This document shows, piece after piece, positions 9,474-40,983 of a stretch of DNA of 64,000 nt. The stretch lies in NCBI RefSeq assembly GCF_904846605.1, contig NZ_CAJHBI010000009.1, forward strand, positions 44,819 through 108,818, read 5' to 3'. Below the pieces are notes generated by a model that did not search any database, was not told the origin of the DNA, and saw only the letters and a program-made list of their open reading frames with translations. Every line of letters begins with the position of its first letter. Positions within the stretch are counted from its first letter, which is position 1. The DNA is from Psychrobacter sp. 72-O-c (GTDB taxonomy: Bacteria; Pseudomonadota; Gammaproteobacteria; Pseudomonadales; Moraxellaceae). Position numbers and translations under genes: made by a program.

Positions 9474-10268
9474 TTAGTTAAGATTAGAGGCCGGATAGCC
9501 GCCAAACCCTAAAGGTTCGTTTTCGCCAAATCGCTTTTTGCAGTCTGACAGTCTACCGCCGCACCGATCAAACGCAGGGTTATCAGTTCGCTCACCGTCT
9601 TTGGTGAACATAGCTGTACCGGTATAGCCACAATACTCGCTACGATACTGACCTCGTACTGCCCATGTGCAATAAGACGTGATATTGATAGTCGGTATTT
9701 TGATGCGTTGAGCCGCTAACGGGCTTGCTAATTCAAAGGTTACGGTATCAAACTGTTCTTCTGTTTTTTGCTCAATCGTCCAGTATTCGCTAGTAAACTC
9801 ATTAGGATTAGCGGTTGGATTGCCTTCGGTGAAGTTTGCGGCGTCGAGATATTTAGCAAGTAAGCGCGTGACTTTTAAGGTCGCCCCGGCAAAGTCTTTG
9901 TATAGAGCGCACATAATAGTTACAGCGCCCACAGTGCCATCAATCTCGTTTGCTATAACTAGGGTGGGTGATGACGGACGACCATCACCGCGCACTTCTA
10001 ATCCGTCAGATTGTATCGCTACTGGTGTATAAGACTGACCCTGCCAGATAATATCGCGTCTTATTGTCTCGCCTTTACCTGTATTTGTTACATGATATTG
10101 ACTGTCAGCAAACTCATCTTTGCTAGCGAATTTAAACAAGTATTCCCATTCCTCATAAGATTGATGGCCGTGCCATCGAAGTAAGCTGCCGCCTAGTTTA
10201 GTTGCGTCCAACTCATAAAGCGTAACAAGACCCGTAACGCTAAGTTTTTGTAAGTCTGAGCTAAGCAT
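9474..10268 (-). CDS. L: Lambda gpL-like minor tail protein with four C-terminal cysteines
   Basis: The 264-residue protein has the gpL layout: an N-terminal beta domain (LVTLYELDAT, GLEVRGDGRPSSPTLVIAN) and a C-terminal cysteine domain. The four cysteines are in SYCTWAVRGQYRSEYCGYTG and DRCGGRLSDCKKRF, consistent with the iron-sulphur site known in lambda gpL. It is a structural part of the tail tip. In lambda it directly follows gene M. Here the M-like gene is almost 3.7 kb further upstream, and the DGR cassette plus one unknown gene sit in between. Confidence 0.85.
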   Translation of the reverse strand: MLSSDLQKLSVTGLVTLYELDATKLGGSLLRWHGHQSYEEWEYLFKFASKDEFADSQYHVTNTGKGETIRRDIIWQGQSYTPVAIQSDGLEVRGDGRPSSPTLVIANEIDGTVGAVTIMCALYKDFAGATLKVTRLLAKYLDAANFTEGNPTANPNEFTSEYWTIEQKTEEQFDTVTFELASPLAAQRIKIPTINITSYCTWAVRGQYRSEYCGYTGTAMFTKDGERTDNPAFDRCGGRLSDCKKRFGENEPLGFGGYPASNLN

Positions 10269-10283
10269 TGTCGCTCCTAAATT

Positions 10284-10940
10284 TTAAAGTAGTAGTGCTT
10301 GAGCCCACATCGCGTCTAGCTGCTCATTAGTTAAACCAAGCATCGCGCCCATATAAGCCACGCTTTCACTTGTACGCTCAAAGATAGTCGCTTCGTTGTA
10401 CTCAATTTCAATACGAGCTTTTAATGCCCCATCCTCTATGCCCGATATAGCTGTCTCAATGGCACTGAGTAAGTCATTTTTCATCAAGACCAGCTTAAAC
10501 TGCCTGCGAGTTAGCGCCCGTAAATGCTTACTTGTGTCAGTAGCTAAGCCGAGGGCTGATTTTTGCTCGCGTCCCCATTGTCTACAATCTTCTACATAAT
10601 CAGCATAAACGCTAAATGTCTCTGACGATGAGTTGCGTATCTCTTTTAGTTCGTCCGACAAGCTATAACGCTCTGCAATCTTTGCTTTGACTCTATTGTT
10701 GATGAGCTGTACGTGCGTAGAGTTAGTTTTGATTAGCTCAAGAAAGTGATCAGTCATTACGACCGTCTCTATAGTGCTCACAATCTCATTTGGCTGGCTC
10801 TCTGGCAGCTCCAAGCCGTCAGGAACGCTAACATACGTCACCCCAGCGATTGTACATAACTCCGTTGCCGACTCTGGGATCTCTAACTGTTTTGTGATGT
10901 TTCTTGTGATAAATTTTTGGTAGCTCACAATATAAGCCAT
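10284..10940 (-). CDS. Phage protein of unknown function after the DGR (218 aa)
   Basis: The start at the ATG at 10940 (MAYIVSYQKF) has GGAG 10 nt upstream; an in-frame ATG six codons earlier has no such signal. The last 113 bp of the reverse transcriptase gene overlap its start in another frame. The protein has a short beta N-terminus and then a long, mostly helical region ending MLGLTNEQLDAMWAQALLL. That shape recalls small phage tail or fibre-associated proteins, but I do not recognise the family. Being sandwiched between the reverse transcriptase and gpL, it may have been brought in with the DGR or be part of the displaced tail module. Confidence 0.65.
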   Translation of the reverse strand: MAYIVSYQKFITRNITKQLEIPESATELCTIAGVTYVSVPDGLELPESQPNEIVSTIETVVMTDHFLELIKTNSTHVQLINNRVKAKIAERYSLSDELKEIRNSSSETFSVYADYVEDCRQWGREQKSALGLATDTSKHLRALTRRQFKLVLMKNDLLSAIETAISGIEDGALKARIEIEYNEATIFERTSESVAYMGAMLGLTNEQLDAMWAQALLL

Positions 10941-11895
10941 AGTTTTCTTGCTCCGCATAAGTTAGTAGGTGTTGCAGTGATCGCGTTTTTGATGCATGTG
11001 CTAGATGTGAGATAAAAGAGTCGAGCTTGTTTTTTCTGACTGCCTTTCTTGATTTGTACAAACTGTATTTTCTAATGAACCTGCCTGATCGCCACGTCCT
11101 ATACCCGCAGAAGTTAACGCCCTTTCTCGTATTAGCGATGGTTGATCGTGACAGTGTGAGCTTCAACTCTTCATTAACAAACTTTGTGAGCTTAACCCTG
11201 TAATCCAACGCCTCATCCCTAGTCAATCCAAACAATAGGAAGTCATCAACGTACCTGCAATAACCTGCGGCTGGCTTAAGCACGCGAGTAGCATAGTGAT
11301 CTACTGGGTTCATGTAGATGAGCGCGAACATCTGCGATAGTAAGTTGCCAATCGGTATTCCTGTTGGCTCTGGATAGTCAGCAAACAGCATCATCAAGTC
11401 GACCATCTTTTTATCTTTAATCTTCTTCTCTAATAACTGCCTCAATACTGGCCTATCAATACTATAAAAGAACTTTTTGATATCAAGCTGCAATGTATAA
11501 GTATCTGGTCCCGCTCTTCTTAATGCGTTTTGTGCGTAGTCAGCAGCAGCGTGTGTGCCCAAGCCGACTCGACAAGCAAATGACTGATCAATAAATGTCT
11601 TTTCAAATATCGGCATGAGTGCGTTATATATCGCATACTGAACGACGCAATCTCTAAATGCCGGTGCATAAATGTCCCTGATTTTGGGTTCATAAACGAT
11701 AAACTTAAAATAGGGCCGTGGTTTGTAAGTACCAGCTTCTAACTCTTCTTGTAGCGATGCTAGTTCTCGGCCTAAGCTTTTCTCAAATTGAAAGCAACCT
11801 CTTCTACCGCCTTTGCTTTTCTTGGCACCCAAAAAGCCTTGCCATAGATTCTCTAATGAAACAACTGAGCTATATAAATCACCCACTCTCTTCAT
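10828..11895 (-). CDS. DGR reverse transcriptase
   Basis: The 355-residue protein has the DGR reverse transcriptase signature. Conserved blocks are KIRDIYAPAFRDCVVQYAI at 71-89, first catalytic aspartate D138 in QLDIKKFFYSID, motif 4 GIPIGNLLSQ at 179-188 (the SQ ending is typical of DGR enzymes), YVDD at 215-218 and KGVNFCGY at 259-265. It would copy the template repeat RNA while misincorporating opposite adenines, producing cDNA that replaces the variable repeat. I chose the ATG at 11895 because AAGGA lies 5 nt upstream. The frame stays open further upstream through the template repeat, but that extension is probably not protein. The gene end overlaps the next gene by 113 bp. Confidence 0.93.
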   Translation of the reverse strand: MKRVGDLYSSVVSLENLWQGFLGAKKSKGGRRGCFQFEKSLGRELASLQEELEAGTYKPRPYFKFIVYEPKIRDIYAPAFRDCVVQYAIYNALMPIFEKTFIDQSFACRVGLGTHAAADYAQNALRRAGPDTYTLQLDIKKFFYSIDRPVLRQLLEKKIKDKKMVDLMMLFADYPEPTGIPIGNLLSQMFALIYMNPVDHYATRVLKPAAGYCRYVDDFLLFGLTRDEALDYRVKLTKFVNEELKLTLSRSTIANTRKGVNFCGYRTWRSGRFIRKYSLYKSRKAVRKNKLDSFISHLAHASKTRSLQHLLTYAEQENYGLYCELPKIYHKKHHKTVRDPRVGNGVMYNRWGDVC

Positions 11896-12029
11896 AAACA
11901 TCCTTAAAAGAACGCGCCTGACTTTCGGTTGCCCTACTAGAAATGCGCGCTTACTCCGATTTCGCGTAACGCAGGAAAACGTCTCCCTTGGCACCAGACG
12001 ACAACTTGTCGCTTGAGGTGATGCCGAGT

Positions 12030-12140
12030 CCGCCCGGACGCCGATGTTGTTGTTGCTATTCGTCCGAGAATTGTTGCTATTGACGATCCAGACGCCAGCG
12101 TTCGTACTGTTGTTCCAGTTGCCGCCCACCAGCGCACATA
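12030..12140 (-). repeat. DGR template repeat (TR)
   Basis: The 111 bp align without gaps to 12600-12710. There are 14 mismatches; 12 fall on adenines of the TR coding strand. On this strand the repeat contains many AAC and AAT codons (read in the target frame: GGNWNNSTNAGVWIVNSNN and on), which lets adenine mutagenesis change most residues while avoiding stop codons. It lies in the gap between the Avd-like gene and the reverse transcriptase, the usual place. A TR RNA spanning about 11896-12172 is expected to be both template and primer. Confidence 0.95.
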
Positions 12141-12172
12141 TTAAGACGCCTCCCTTTTTTGAACCTTGCTTG

Positions 12173-12553
12173 CTACATAACTGACTTTATCCAGCCACCG
12201 ATAATCTTACCGATCTCATCAATATTCACTGATATAGATAAATACCTTTTAGCGTTTAGCTTTTGCACTGATATCTTCTCAGTTTTTGGATGGCCGAAGT
12301 AGGACAGCTCAAACGCCAGTCTTACCTGCATCCTTAGTTGCTCATGCTTAATATCTAAGTTAGTGAGCGTTGTCTTTTTGTGATATCTCTTTTGCGCTTC
12401 GACGATGTAATCATACATCTCATAAGCAGTGGTCCTTATTCTTAACGCCAAGCCGTGCTTCTCGTGACTTGGGAAGTGATTTAGATATATATTCAATAGC
12501 TGCATCGTTTGTATAAACTTCCTATCTAAATTTGACTCGCTATCTACTGCCAT
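12173..12553 (-). CDS. avd: Avd-like DGR accessory protein (four-helix bundle)
   Basis: The 126-residue protein is predicted all-helical and basic, matching the accessory variability determinant family in size, charge and position between target gene and TR. Features include LDRKFIQTMQLLNIYLNHFP, a central helix with EMYDYIVEAQKRYHKK, a short FELSYFGHP segment and a last helix ending IGKIIGGWIKSVM. In Bordetella phage the Avd pentamer binds the reverse transcriptase and TR RNA and is needed for homing. No strong Shine-Dalgarno is close to the ATG at 12553; translation may be coupled to the target gene, whose stop is 30 bp upstream. Confidence 0.85.
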   Translation of the reverse strand: MAVDSESNLDRKFIQTMQLLNIYLNHFPSHEKHGLALRIRTTAYEMYDYIVEAQKRYHKKTTLTNLDIKHEQLRMQVRLAFELSYFGHPKTEKISVQKLNAKRYLSISVNIDEIGKIIGGWIKSVM

Positions 12554-12582
12554 AATTTATTAATCCCCTCGCTATCGCTCAG

Positions 12583-13980
12583 TCAAACAAAATACAAGGC
12601 CGCCCGGACGCCGCGGCTGTTGTTGCTATTCGACCGAGAATTGAGGCCAGTGACGATCCAGATGCCAGCGATCGTACTGCTGCTCCAGGTGCCGCCCACC
12701 AGCGCACACAGGTCCTCAACTCGATTGTCATAGAATCGATCATTACCGAATGCATTAGTGCCATCTGAGCCGCCGAGCATAGGTATGCCTGCGCAAGATG
12801 CTGCCCATGCCAAGCCGCTGTTGGCGCTTGAGAATACCTGTTTAGTTGTAGAGCCAATAGCAAAGTTCCGACTTTCGCCCGTTAACTCCCCATAACTTGC
12901 GCCCAGAGAGTCATAACTCGCTGTCATTGCTGCGGTGCCCCACGCATCAGTAGCGAGTGTAGCACCGCTTGTGAGCGCTGCGGCCTTGGTGGTGGTTTTT
13001 AAGGTATAGAAATTGCCATCGGTTTGCGTGAGTCCCAGAGCGACTTCGTACATATTGCCGTTCAGATCCGCAACTCCGCTTGCTTGGCCGTTGTGCGTGG
13101 TTTTTGCAAACGGCTGACCTGACCCTGTTTTTCCAGCTGATGAATATCCCGTTTCTTCGTAGACTACGCTTGTGTCGTTAACGTCACGTAGCGCGTTATT
13201 GTTACATCCTTTGGGGAAGTTGTTGACGCCGCTAGCATCGTACCAAGCGCAGGCTGCTGAGCTAGTTGAAGCTTGGGCATGGGCCATGCTAAGTAATGAC
13301 AGTGCGCGCTGAATAAAGATGGTAGTCGGAAAGAAGTTTGCCCCGCGGGTTTTAACAGCGTCAATAGATCCCGCTAGGTTGTTGCCCGCTGACCCAGTTA
13401 GGCCGCTGAAGGGTGCGTTAGAACCACTTGATGATAATGGAATACCGTTTTTTACTGAGCTAGCAGTACCGTCATTATTGCTACACTGGAATTTATCAAC
13501 AAAGAAGCCGTCTTGCAGTCTTCCGTCGTCATAGAAAGCGCGATGGACTGCGTAGCCCTCTAGCTTGGCAGCTGCTACGGATGCGAAGTAATCTTTTGGT
13601 TTAACATCGCAAGCATTGACGCCATATTTGGCATAGTTTGGGCTACTGCCATTGCCCCATCGGTAGTAAAACATGGGTACATAGCACATTACTGATCCGT
13701 CACTGTACCTGTAATTCCCATAATTCTCATGGCCACGAATATTGGTGCCGACCATTGGGTACATACCCGGAGGCAGGGCGTCTGTCACGCCCGTGCCAAA
13801 TCCTAGTTCGCCTGCCACGCCGATATCAGTAAGTTCGGGTGATAGGTTGTCAGATATGCGTTTTAACTCTCCATCAATATCGATGAAGTTGTCGCGGGTT
13901 TTGAGCCACATGGTGTGCTCATCATCCCCTGTCTTGTCTTCTGGTACACCATTACCGGGGTCGGGTAGTCTTAGCGACAT
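12583..13980 (-). CDS. DGR target: tail-associated variable protein with C-type-lectin/FGE-like fold
   Basis: The 465-residue protein ends in the variable repeat (residues 424-460) followed by five invariant residues, ALYFV. The C-terminal 200 or so residues have marks of the FGE/C-type-lectin fold of DGR targets: VADLNGNMYEVALG, LGGSDGTNAFGNDRFYDNR and GG-x-W-x5-AG-x-W. An N-terminal module (residues 1 to about 130, with LPPGMYPMVGTNIRG and CYVPMFYYRWG) probably attaches it to the tail. Ten codons differ from the template through adenine changes: 431, 433, 434, 437, 444, 445, 446, 450, 455 and 456. The likely role is a receptor-binding protein whose ligand surface is diversified. It is read with the tail genes, 12 bp after gpM. 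Confidence 0.92.
   Translation of the reverse strand: MSLRLPDPGNGVPEDKTGDDEHTMWLKTRDNFIDIDGELKRISDNLSPELTDIGVAGELGFGTGVTDALPPGMYPMVGTNIRGHENYGNYRYSDGSVMCYVPMFYYRWGNGSSPNYAKYGVNACDVKPKDYFASVAAAKLEGYAVHRAFYDDGRLQDGFFVDKFQCSNNDGTASSVKNGIPLSSSGSNAPFSGLTGSAGNNLAGSIDAVKTRGANFFPTTIFIQRALSLLSMAHAQASTSSAACAWYDASGVNNFPKGCNNNALRDVNDTSVVYEETGYSSAGKTGSGQPFAKTTHNGQASGVADLNGNMYEVALGLTQTDGNFYTLKTTTKAAALTSGATLATDAWGTAAMTASYDSLGASYGELTGESRNFAIGSTTKQVFSSANSGLAWAASCAGIPMLGGSDGTNAFGNDRFYDNRVEDLCALVGGTWSSSTIAGIWIVTGLNSRSNSNNSRGVRAALYFV
12600..12710 (-). repeat. DGR variable repeat (VR) with 3' homing end
   Basis: This is the 3' end of the target gene. The last 13 bp on the coding strand (12600-12612) match the TR exactly and are GC-rich, as expected for the initiation of mutagenic homing site. 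Substitutions relative to TR are A to C, G or T at twelve positions, plus one G to A (12663) and one T to G (12614) not explained by adenine mutagenesis. Identity ends sharply at both borders. Confidence 0.95.
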
Positions 13981-13992
13981 GGGTTTGCTCCT

Positions 13993-14334
13993 TTAAACGC
14001 TCATAAATTGCTCAAAATTGAGCGTGATTTGCCAAAAGTTACCTTGCCGCTGCGGCGTAGATGCTCCAGCGCAAGTGTATTGTTTAGTATTTCCGTGCGG
14101 GTCAGTCCATAAGAAGGGTTTGACGCCTGCGTGATCATCAAGAAACGCTTCGATGGGCTTGATGACCGTTTCCAAGTCGCCGGTCTTAGTGCCTGACCAG
14201 TTCTTAATTTTGTTATTAATACCCGTTGATGTGTGCTGCGCGTAGCCGTCGCCTAACTGGGTTTTATTGACGCGGTACTGAGTATCAGCAGCTGCGCCCA
14301 TATCCATTTGCCAACGGAAAGTCTTGATTGTCAT
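13993..14334 (-). CDS. M: Lambda gpM-like minor tail protein
   Basis: From the ATG at 14334 the protein is 113 residues (MTIKTFRWQMDMG...), ending NFWQITLNFEQFMSV. FRW near the start, DGYAQHTSTGINN and the sentence-like FLWTDPHGNTKQYTCAG are typical of the gpM/DUF-type tail-tip proteins that link the tail tube end to the tip. An in-frame ATG at 14358 lies inside a terminator-like hairpin and is unlikely. The gene follows the tape measure gene. Instead of gpL, the next gene downstream is the DGR target. Confidence 0.82.
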   Translation of the reverse strand: MTIKTFRWQMDMGAAADTQYRVNKTQLGDGYAQHTSTGINNKIKNWSGTKTGDLETVIKPIEAFLDDHAGVKPFLWTDPHGNTKQYTCAGASTPQRQGNFWQITLNFEQFMSV

Positions 14335-14346
14335 ATGAGTGCTCAC

Positions 14347-14375
14347 TAAAAAGCCCACTGCGATAGTGGGCTTTT
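14347..14375 (-). terminator. Hairpin between tape measure and gpM genes
   Basis: AAGCCCACT/AGTGGGCTT stem with a short CGCGAT-type loop and T-runs on both sides (14350-14373). On the minus strand it is followed by five T residues. Confidence 0.6.
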
Positions 14376-40952: not shown

Positions 40953-40983
40953 AAATGGTGGGGCTGGAGAGACTCGAACTCTC
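40953..40983. repeat. attR core: 31-bp repeat within tRNA-Leu
   Basis: Identical to 1054-1084. It covers the 3' CCA end, acceptor strand and T-arm of the intact tRNA, so the phage carries a tRNA tail that restores the gene. Confidence 0.93.

Follow-up and report, generated by a model that had tools for sequence, protein, structure and literature searches.

Diversity-generating retroelements (DGRs) are natural targeted hypermutators, in which discrimination between target and template is partly understood. In Bordetella phage BPP-1 the stem of a hairpin on the target side is reported as needed. The hairpins of phage DGR targets are described as lying 4–34 bp after the variable repeat (VR), with a GC-rich stem of 7–10 bp and a four-nucleotide GRNA loop, and that of BPP-1 has been probed with T7 endonuclease I (PMC3240598). 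In the same phage, for which a reconstituted system exists, a structured spacer recruits the reverse transcriptase (RT) together with Avd (PMC12875486). Here we describe a DGR in a prophage of Psychrobacter sp. 72-O-c, contained in 64,000 nucleotides of contig NZ_CAJHBI010000009.1 (positions 44,819 to 108,818), a stretch referred to throughout as the window. We read the locus as a complete DGR of the BPP-1 type, with a probability of roughly 0.92. Its parts lie on the minus strand in the order target gene with 3' VR, Avd, template repeat (TR) and RT, which is also the order in BPP-1 (mtd, bbp7/avd, TR, brt). A first-pass annotation, made from the letters alone, had placed the four parts in this order, and open reading frames (ORFs) and repeat search agree with its coordinates to the base; the strand, a second DGR prophage in the same genome, a target-side hairpin, a fixed edge base and a partner-like gene downstream are added by the present analysis.

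Parts and repeats of the retroelement

12583–13980, minus strand: DGR target gene, 465 aa, C-type-lectin-like model (ORF, predicted model, PDB matches, homologues)
12597–12710, minus strand: VR at the 3' end of the target gene, with a GC-rich edge resembling an initiation of mutagenic homing (IMH) site (repeat search and alignment)
12173–12553, minus strand: Avd, 126 aa (PF22296, E 6.7e-19; phrog_3206, E 3.1e-21)
12027–12140, minus strand: TR (repeat search and alignment)
10828–11895, minus strand: RT, about 355 aa, with YVDD and IGNLLSQ motifs (ORF, Pfam, PHROG and PDB match; predicted start)

The RT is of the DGR type: its best PDB match, 8ub7 (E 4.6e-50), is identical to BPP-1 brt over 328 residues, and the PHROG RT family is matched at E 3.9e-92. 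As listed, its ORF has 433 aa, opens with a GTG that takes it back into the TR and ends at 10828; the start is most likely the ATG at 11895, because AAGGA lies 5 nt upstream and the ORFs of several relatives possess the same start residue. Avd matches the accessory gene of BPP-1-type elements, and the reading frames of RT, Avd and target are all open and intact. The predicted model of the target matches a solved DGR variable protein, Thermus aquaticus TaqVP (PDB 5vf4), to which it has 17% identity over aligned residues, and on this model the VR occupies the 3' end of a C-type-lectin-like target.

An unbiased repeat search paired 12027–12138 with 12597–12708 at 88%. Over the 111 bp first annotated (TR 12030–12140, VR 12600–12710) our recount returned the same gapless alignment with 14 mismatches, 12 of them at TR adenines (4 A to C, 5 A to G, 3 A to T); across the full 114-bp repeat, which contains 31 adenines, the figure is 13 of 15 (binomial P 2.6e-6). 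That such a bias comes neither from chance nor from plain duplication, as had been argued, is borne out by this value and by related elements, whose repeats also differ mainly at adenines: in 47 distinct TR/VR pairs, TR adenines account for 653 of the 692 core mismatches. Relatives with randomly placed differences, which the first-pass annotation had named as an outcome that would refute it, were looked for in this survey and not found. The survey tried 60 loci with an Avd match, of which 54 gave a pair (47 distinct) and 6 none; related loci, here and below, were fetched by homology to the gene downstream of the RT (68 loci) or by RT or genome searches, and do not constitute a random sample of DGRs. 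The score used to extend repeats penalised template-adenine mismatches less, and may slightly lengthen them, leaving the unbiased 88% search unaffected. There are 18 mutable codons, containing 29 adenines, and a stop codon can be reached from none of them. TR and VR differ at 10 adenine-templated residues, edge residue 461 being left out, in keeping with the ten or so diversified residues originally proposed.

At the next template adenine, the edge base 12029, the TR reads GACT and the VR GCCT, while the difference at 12139 lies at the outer edge of the repeat. GACT/GCCT is an edge difference of the IMH/IMH* kind, and a comparable one is described for nanoarchaeal DGRs (PMC4372165). The same A to C change (GAC in the TR, GCC in the VR) recurs in 44 of the 47 related pairs; the script had given 45, one being A-to-G, and L005, one of two that it classed as other, has the same difference beyond the cut. 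On this comparison the adenine at 12029 is a near-fixed mark of template versus target and not a product of mutagenesis, and it should not be counted as such.

Natural variation follows the template. The target has 2120 homologues at E ≤ 0.001 (7998 candidates scored), and the 14 closest show a mean of 5.4 residue types at codons with a TR adenine in positions 1–2, against 1.6 at other VR codons and 1.7 outside the VR. Among the three closest targets, the three pairwise comparisons give 13, 14 and 12 differing codons out of the 19 with adenine, 2, 3 and 1 out of the 18 others in the VR, and 22, 21 and 14 out of the 428 that lie outside it. Two positions depart from the common pattern. At residue 445 (TR codon 12076–12078) the window template encodes Ser, in contrast to the Cys of the other 13 among the 14 targets, which adds a mutable site, and residue 427 is variable in relatives although its codon in the window TR has no adenine.

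The RNA around the TR is predicted to be structured. In eight loci the stretch ahead of the TR pairs with the spacer, which contains additional hairpins:

12143–12155, minus strand: pre-TR arm of a long-range RNA helix closing around the TR, partner 11973–11985 (13 pairs, 100% of cells paired)
11973–11985, minus strand: spacer arm of the same helix, partner 12143–12155 (13 pairs)
11998–12012, minus strand: covarying spacer hairpin directly after the TR (helix 3; both sides changed in 4 of 6 pairs)
11912–11951, minus strand: second covarying spacer hairpin, before the RT (helix 5; both sides changed in 8 of 9 pairs, pairing in 92.8% of cells)

Across the eight sequences, 97.8% of the cells of 35 pairs taken from the predicted structure are paired and 16 pairs carry changes on both sides, which is covariation. 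None of 500 shuffles reaches either value, a single one attains the number of pair types, and 40–55% is paired in slid registers; the structure was predicted on the alignment that was used for scoring, which favours it. By analogy, this RNA fits the spacer that recruits RT and Avd in BPP-1.

Several points weigh against the reading of the locus as a complete BPP-1-type DGR. Two TR/VR differences are not at adenines (G to A at 12093, T to G at 12044). Avd scores 77.6 bits against the NCBIfam Avd model, just under the cut-off of 80, and matches no PDB sequence at E 1. Parts of the VR are modelled with low confidence, the target matches no Pfam family, and the two copies of a sister element elsewhere in the genome (described below) are identical, VR included, so that no turnover is seen. 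The DGR is nevertheless probably working, to judge from its sequence. The earlier statement that it looks active stands for the lineage and for the sequence, on adenine-directed divergence and intact ORFs.

A predicted hairpin beyond the variable repeat

12567–12582, minus strand: predicted hairpin CTGAGC-GATA-GCGAGG, with a GRNA loop and a tandem G.A step (function predicted)

The hairpin begins 14 nt after the VR, directly past the target stop codon. Loop (GATA) and distance agree with the published description, and the stem departs from the 7–10 bp of GC-rich Watson-Crick pairs found there: two Watson-Crick pairs are followed by G.A / A.G, and then by T.G and C-G. The best reading is a putative homing hairpin in which a G.A step replaces base pairs, and the G.A pairs would presumably have sheared geometry.

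Of 48 distinct loci whose sequence extends 90 nt ahead of Avd, 32 combine a GRNA loop with two inner pairs and tandem G.A, 11 have a Watson-Crick hairpin and 5 score as neither; dinucleotide shuffles gave means of 0.025 and 0.75, against the observed 32 and 11. Pseudomonas phage Bise is one of the 5, despite its Watson-Crick hairpin. Within the 32, inner pairs vary without loss of pairing (G-C is replaced by A-T in 3 loci and by G.T in 1, and C-G by T-A in 1). The G.A motif occurs 45 times in 1.14 Mb (68 loci, both strands), and 31 of these occurrences are within 120 nt before Avd. An RT tree of 56 rows requires no fewer than 8 switches of hairpin type; it is a quick tree in which 10 of 45 inner branches are open, 5 labelled rows have no state and the states of Bise and BPP-1 were set by hand.

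Loci that have a target-like gene and no RT, of which there are eight, bear on the association of hairpin and DGR. Six have no such hairpin after the target and no Avd match beside it; L087, among them, shows a weak resemblance to Avd (E 0.003) at a distance of some 6 kb, and, with L070 and L071 sharing a stretch, the six represent at most 5 independent cases. In the remaining two, L104 and L043, the hairpin is present and an Avd remnant follows directly, of 31 residues (E 3.4e-9) and of 16 residues (E 0.12, a weak match) respectively. These loci (L104:5784-5923, L043:5876-6121) are apparently decayed DGRs, having a target-like gene, a G.A hairpin and an Avd remnant, with no RT found. Separately, L088, L092 and L095 have a G.A-type hairpin near 735, about 3.6 kb upstream of Avd, together with a mostly Watson-Crick one beside Avd, and possibly contain a second target gene.

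Stem geometry and stability count against a homing hairpin with a G.A step. In the 32 G.A types the next outward pair is a mismatch in 17 (mostly T.T), Watson-Crick in 12 and T.G in 3; the window hairpin has a nearest-neighbour energy of -0.8 kcal/mol, with the two inner pairs alone predicted; and the other G.A types that were folded lie between 0.0 and -3.1 kcal/mol, whereas a Watson-Crick relative reaches -7.4. We hold the chances about evenly balanced for the wider proposal, that most DGRs of a large phage clade, that of the window among them, use a new hairpin class (GRNA loop, two pairs and tandem sheared G.A) which has been swapped with Watson-Crick hairpins at least 8 times, homing reading shape and loop and not stem stability; our confidence is held down by the lack of outer pairing in 17 of 32 and by the weakness of the L043 remnant.

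Low predicted DNA stability would also suit an mRNA signal controlling Avd translation, as would the position of the GRNA-loop motif 7–36 nt ahead of the Avd start in G.A-type loci and the contact of its 3' arm with the likely ribosome-binding site. We consider such a signal unlikely: the loop obeys the DNA consensus GRNA published in PMC3240598, it is mostly not GNRA (GATA, GGTA, GGCA), and in BPP-1 too the hairpin is found on the VR side. A homing hairpin is the reading retained in what follows.

The downstream gene, the prophage and a sister element

10284–10940, minus strand: 218-aa gene sharing 113 nt with the end of the RT gene (homologues; start placed from homologues)

The N-terminal domain of this gene has no match in Pfam, PHROG or NCBIfam. 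In 52 of 68 viral loci encoding the domain a DGR RT is directly upstream, and in 51 of the 52 the domain start overlaps the RT end by 41–140 nt, an arrangement that would be expected of a new DGR enzyme or an Avd-like accessory factor needed for mutagenesis. We regard such a role as rather improbable. Among the other 16 loci, 8 have a target-like gene upstream (7 of them within 140 nt) and 2 follow other genes, while in the last 6 the sequence stops no more than about 410 nt upstream of the match. The stretches fetched around the DGRs of the sister element (on contig C12), Bise, L011, L009 and BPP-1 contained no homologue at E 1. The gene likely encodes a partner of the target protein or a factor for its assembly, the Avd-TR-RT block being set between the two genes.

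The prophage spans 39.9 kb (1054–40983), bounded by 31-bp core copies at 1054–1084 and 40953–40983, the second in a tRNA-Leu gene. Its genes include matches to integrase, repressor, primase, terminase, portal, capsid, tape measure and endolysin, and it is apparently a complete prophage of its Psychrobacter host. Tape measure, M-, L-, K- and I-like genes follow in order, as in a lambda-like siphophage tail module; a J-like gene of 1537 aa is known as an ORF only and owes its name to its position. The DGR cassette is flanked by two minor tail genes:

13993–14358, minus strand: minor tail protein M-like gene, upstream neighbour (PF05939, E 2.3e-28)
9474–10268, minus strand: minor tail protein L-like gene, downstream neighbour (PF05100, E 3.1e-56)

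The assignment to a Moraxellaceae siphoprophage thus holds, as a Psychrobacter phage with a lambda-like tail module, after separate tests of RT, Avd, TR/VR, target fold and prophage context. Psychrobacter phage Psymv2 has the same tail module, its M and K being 82% and 72% identical to those of the window prophage, but at the junction of M and L it possesses a single gene, orf41 (L034:12141-13004), in the place taken by the DGR in the window prophage. Orf41 matches none of seven window proteins compared and, because this unrelated gene occupies the DGR position, the junction looks like a site of exchange.

The sister element is part of a second DGR prophage on contig C12 (G000:C12:13633-83248; L015, L012, L013, L014, L016), attached in a tRNA-Ser gene. 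Its tail is contractile (tail sheath, baseplate, tail fibre), making it presumably P2-like, and its RT is 80% identical to the window RT. At E 1e-5 the two prophages share a segment of 2,825 bp (72%) that reaches from around target residue 100 almost to the end of the RT, and the only other shared match is a cross-match of TR and VR. The C12 element comprises two exact periods of 34,795 bp extending to the contig end, and may be a tandem prophage or else an excised circle that was captured in assembly. Across the genus, 11 of 105 genomes have any RT match at E 0.001, and 3 (this genome, G005 and G014) have an RT of at least 80% identity.

Identity of the two C12 copies would be expected of a dormant relic, a DGR that once diversified its target and is now non-functional in the window prophage, and the two non-adenine differences that have accrued between TR and VR point the same way. 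We judge a relic distinctly improbable, given that RT, Avd and target are intact, that the RNA helices are conserved and that close natural relatives differ chiefly at adenine codons.

There is a slim chance that the target is some other virion or secreted protein and not a receptor-binding tail protein, seeing that it belongs to no Pfam family and that the two PHROGs it matches are both of no known function. The description 'tail-associated' in the first-pass annotation is based on gene position, predicted model and synteny. Fifteen Campylobacter phage records (H54-H68, e.g. CP220, CP21) contain a protein 29–31% identical to about target residues 57–316, with no match to the VR part. Finally, an RT from a group II intron or other retroelement beside a chance duplication is already contradicted and may be dismissed, since its one support, a match of 115.8 bits to the NCBIfam group II RT/maturase model, is far under the cut-off of 300, the best PDB match is the BPP-1 DGR RT, and repeats differ mainly at adenines in relatives too.

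Proposed mechanism and comparison with known systems

In the mechanism we propose, the structured spacer would recruit RT and Avd, which would copy the TR RNA; reverse transcription of the TR is likely error-prone at adenines, and the copies would be pasted into the 3' end of the predicted tail-tip receptor-binding gene. Homing to the VR would be directed by the GC-rich repeat edge and by the GRNA-loop DNA hairpin 14 nt further, with the transferred tract stopping before the GACT/GCCT edge base, and the receptor binding of the phage would thereby be varied. The tandem G.A step usual in the hairpin stems of the clade likely substitutes for Watson-Crick pairs, and the overlapping downstream gene likely acts in the folding or attachment of the target protein and not in its mutation.

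We found no description of the hairpin variant or of the partner-like gene in the open-access literature, including the available portions of PMC3240598, PMC8144416, PMC12875486, PMC6642488, PMC3521204 and PMC4372165, and no paper there that treats a DGR together with Psychrobacter. Most relatives in our comparison retain the known loop but have no BPP-1-type stem, which makes the recognition rule directly testable. Furthermore, the overlapping partner-like gene and a 2.8-kb module common to one lambda-like and one P2-like prophage of the same genome suggest that a receptor-binder plus mutator moves as a unit between unlike phages.

The closest known relatives are the DGRs of Psychrobacter faecalis DSM 14664 and G005, which have RTs 81–82% identical to the window RT, the same gene order including the downstream gene, and the G.A hairpin, but differ in their VR sequences and in the target N-terminus. 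Bise has the closest RT in the phage collection, at 52% identity, and its TR/VR differences are likewise adenine-directed, whereas its gene set is of the contractile-tail type and its hairpin is Watson-Crick, 16 nt after its VR. BPP-1 shares with the window, besides part order, a homologous RT (35.5% identity), adenine-directed TR/VR differences, a C-type-lectin-like target and a GRNA-loop hairpin after the VR. It differs in the 8-bp Watson-Crick stem of that hairpin, where the window has a tandem G.A stem, in its bbp4, which does not match the 218-aa downstream gene, and in being a podovirus, the window phage having a lambda-like tail module. The DGR of the window is hence a known kind of system, to which it adds a hairpin with a G.A step, a near-fixed GACT/GCCT edge mark, a partner-like gene overlapping the RT and a module shared with a P2-like prophage.

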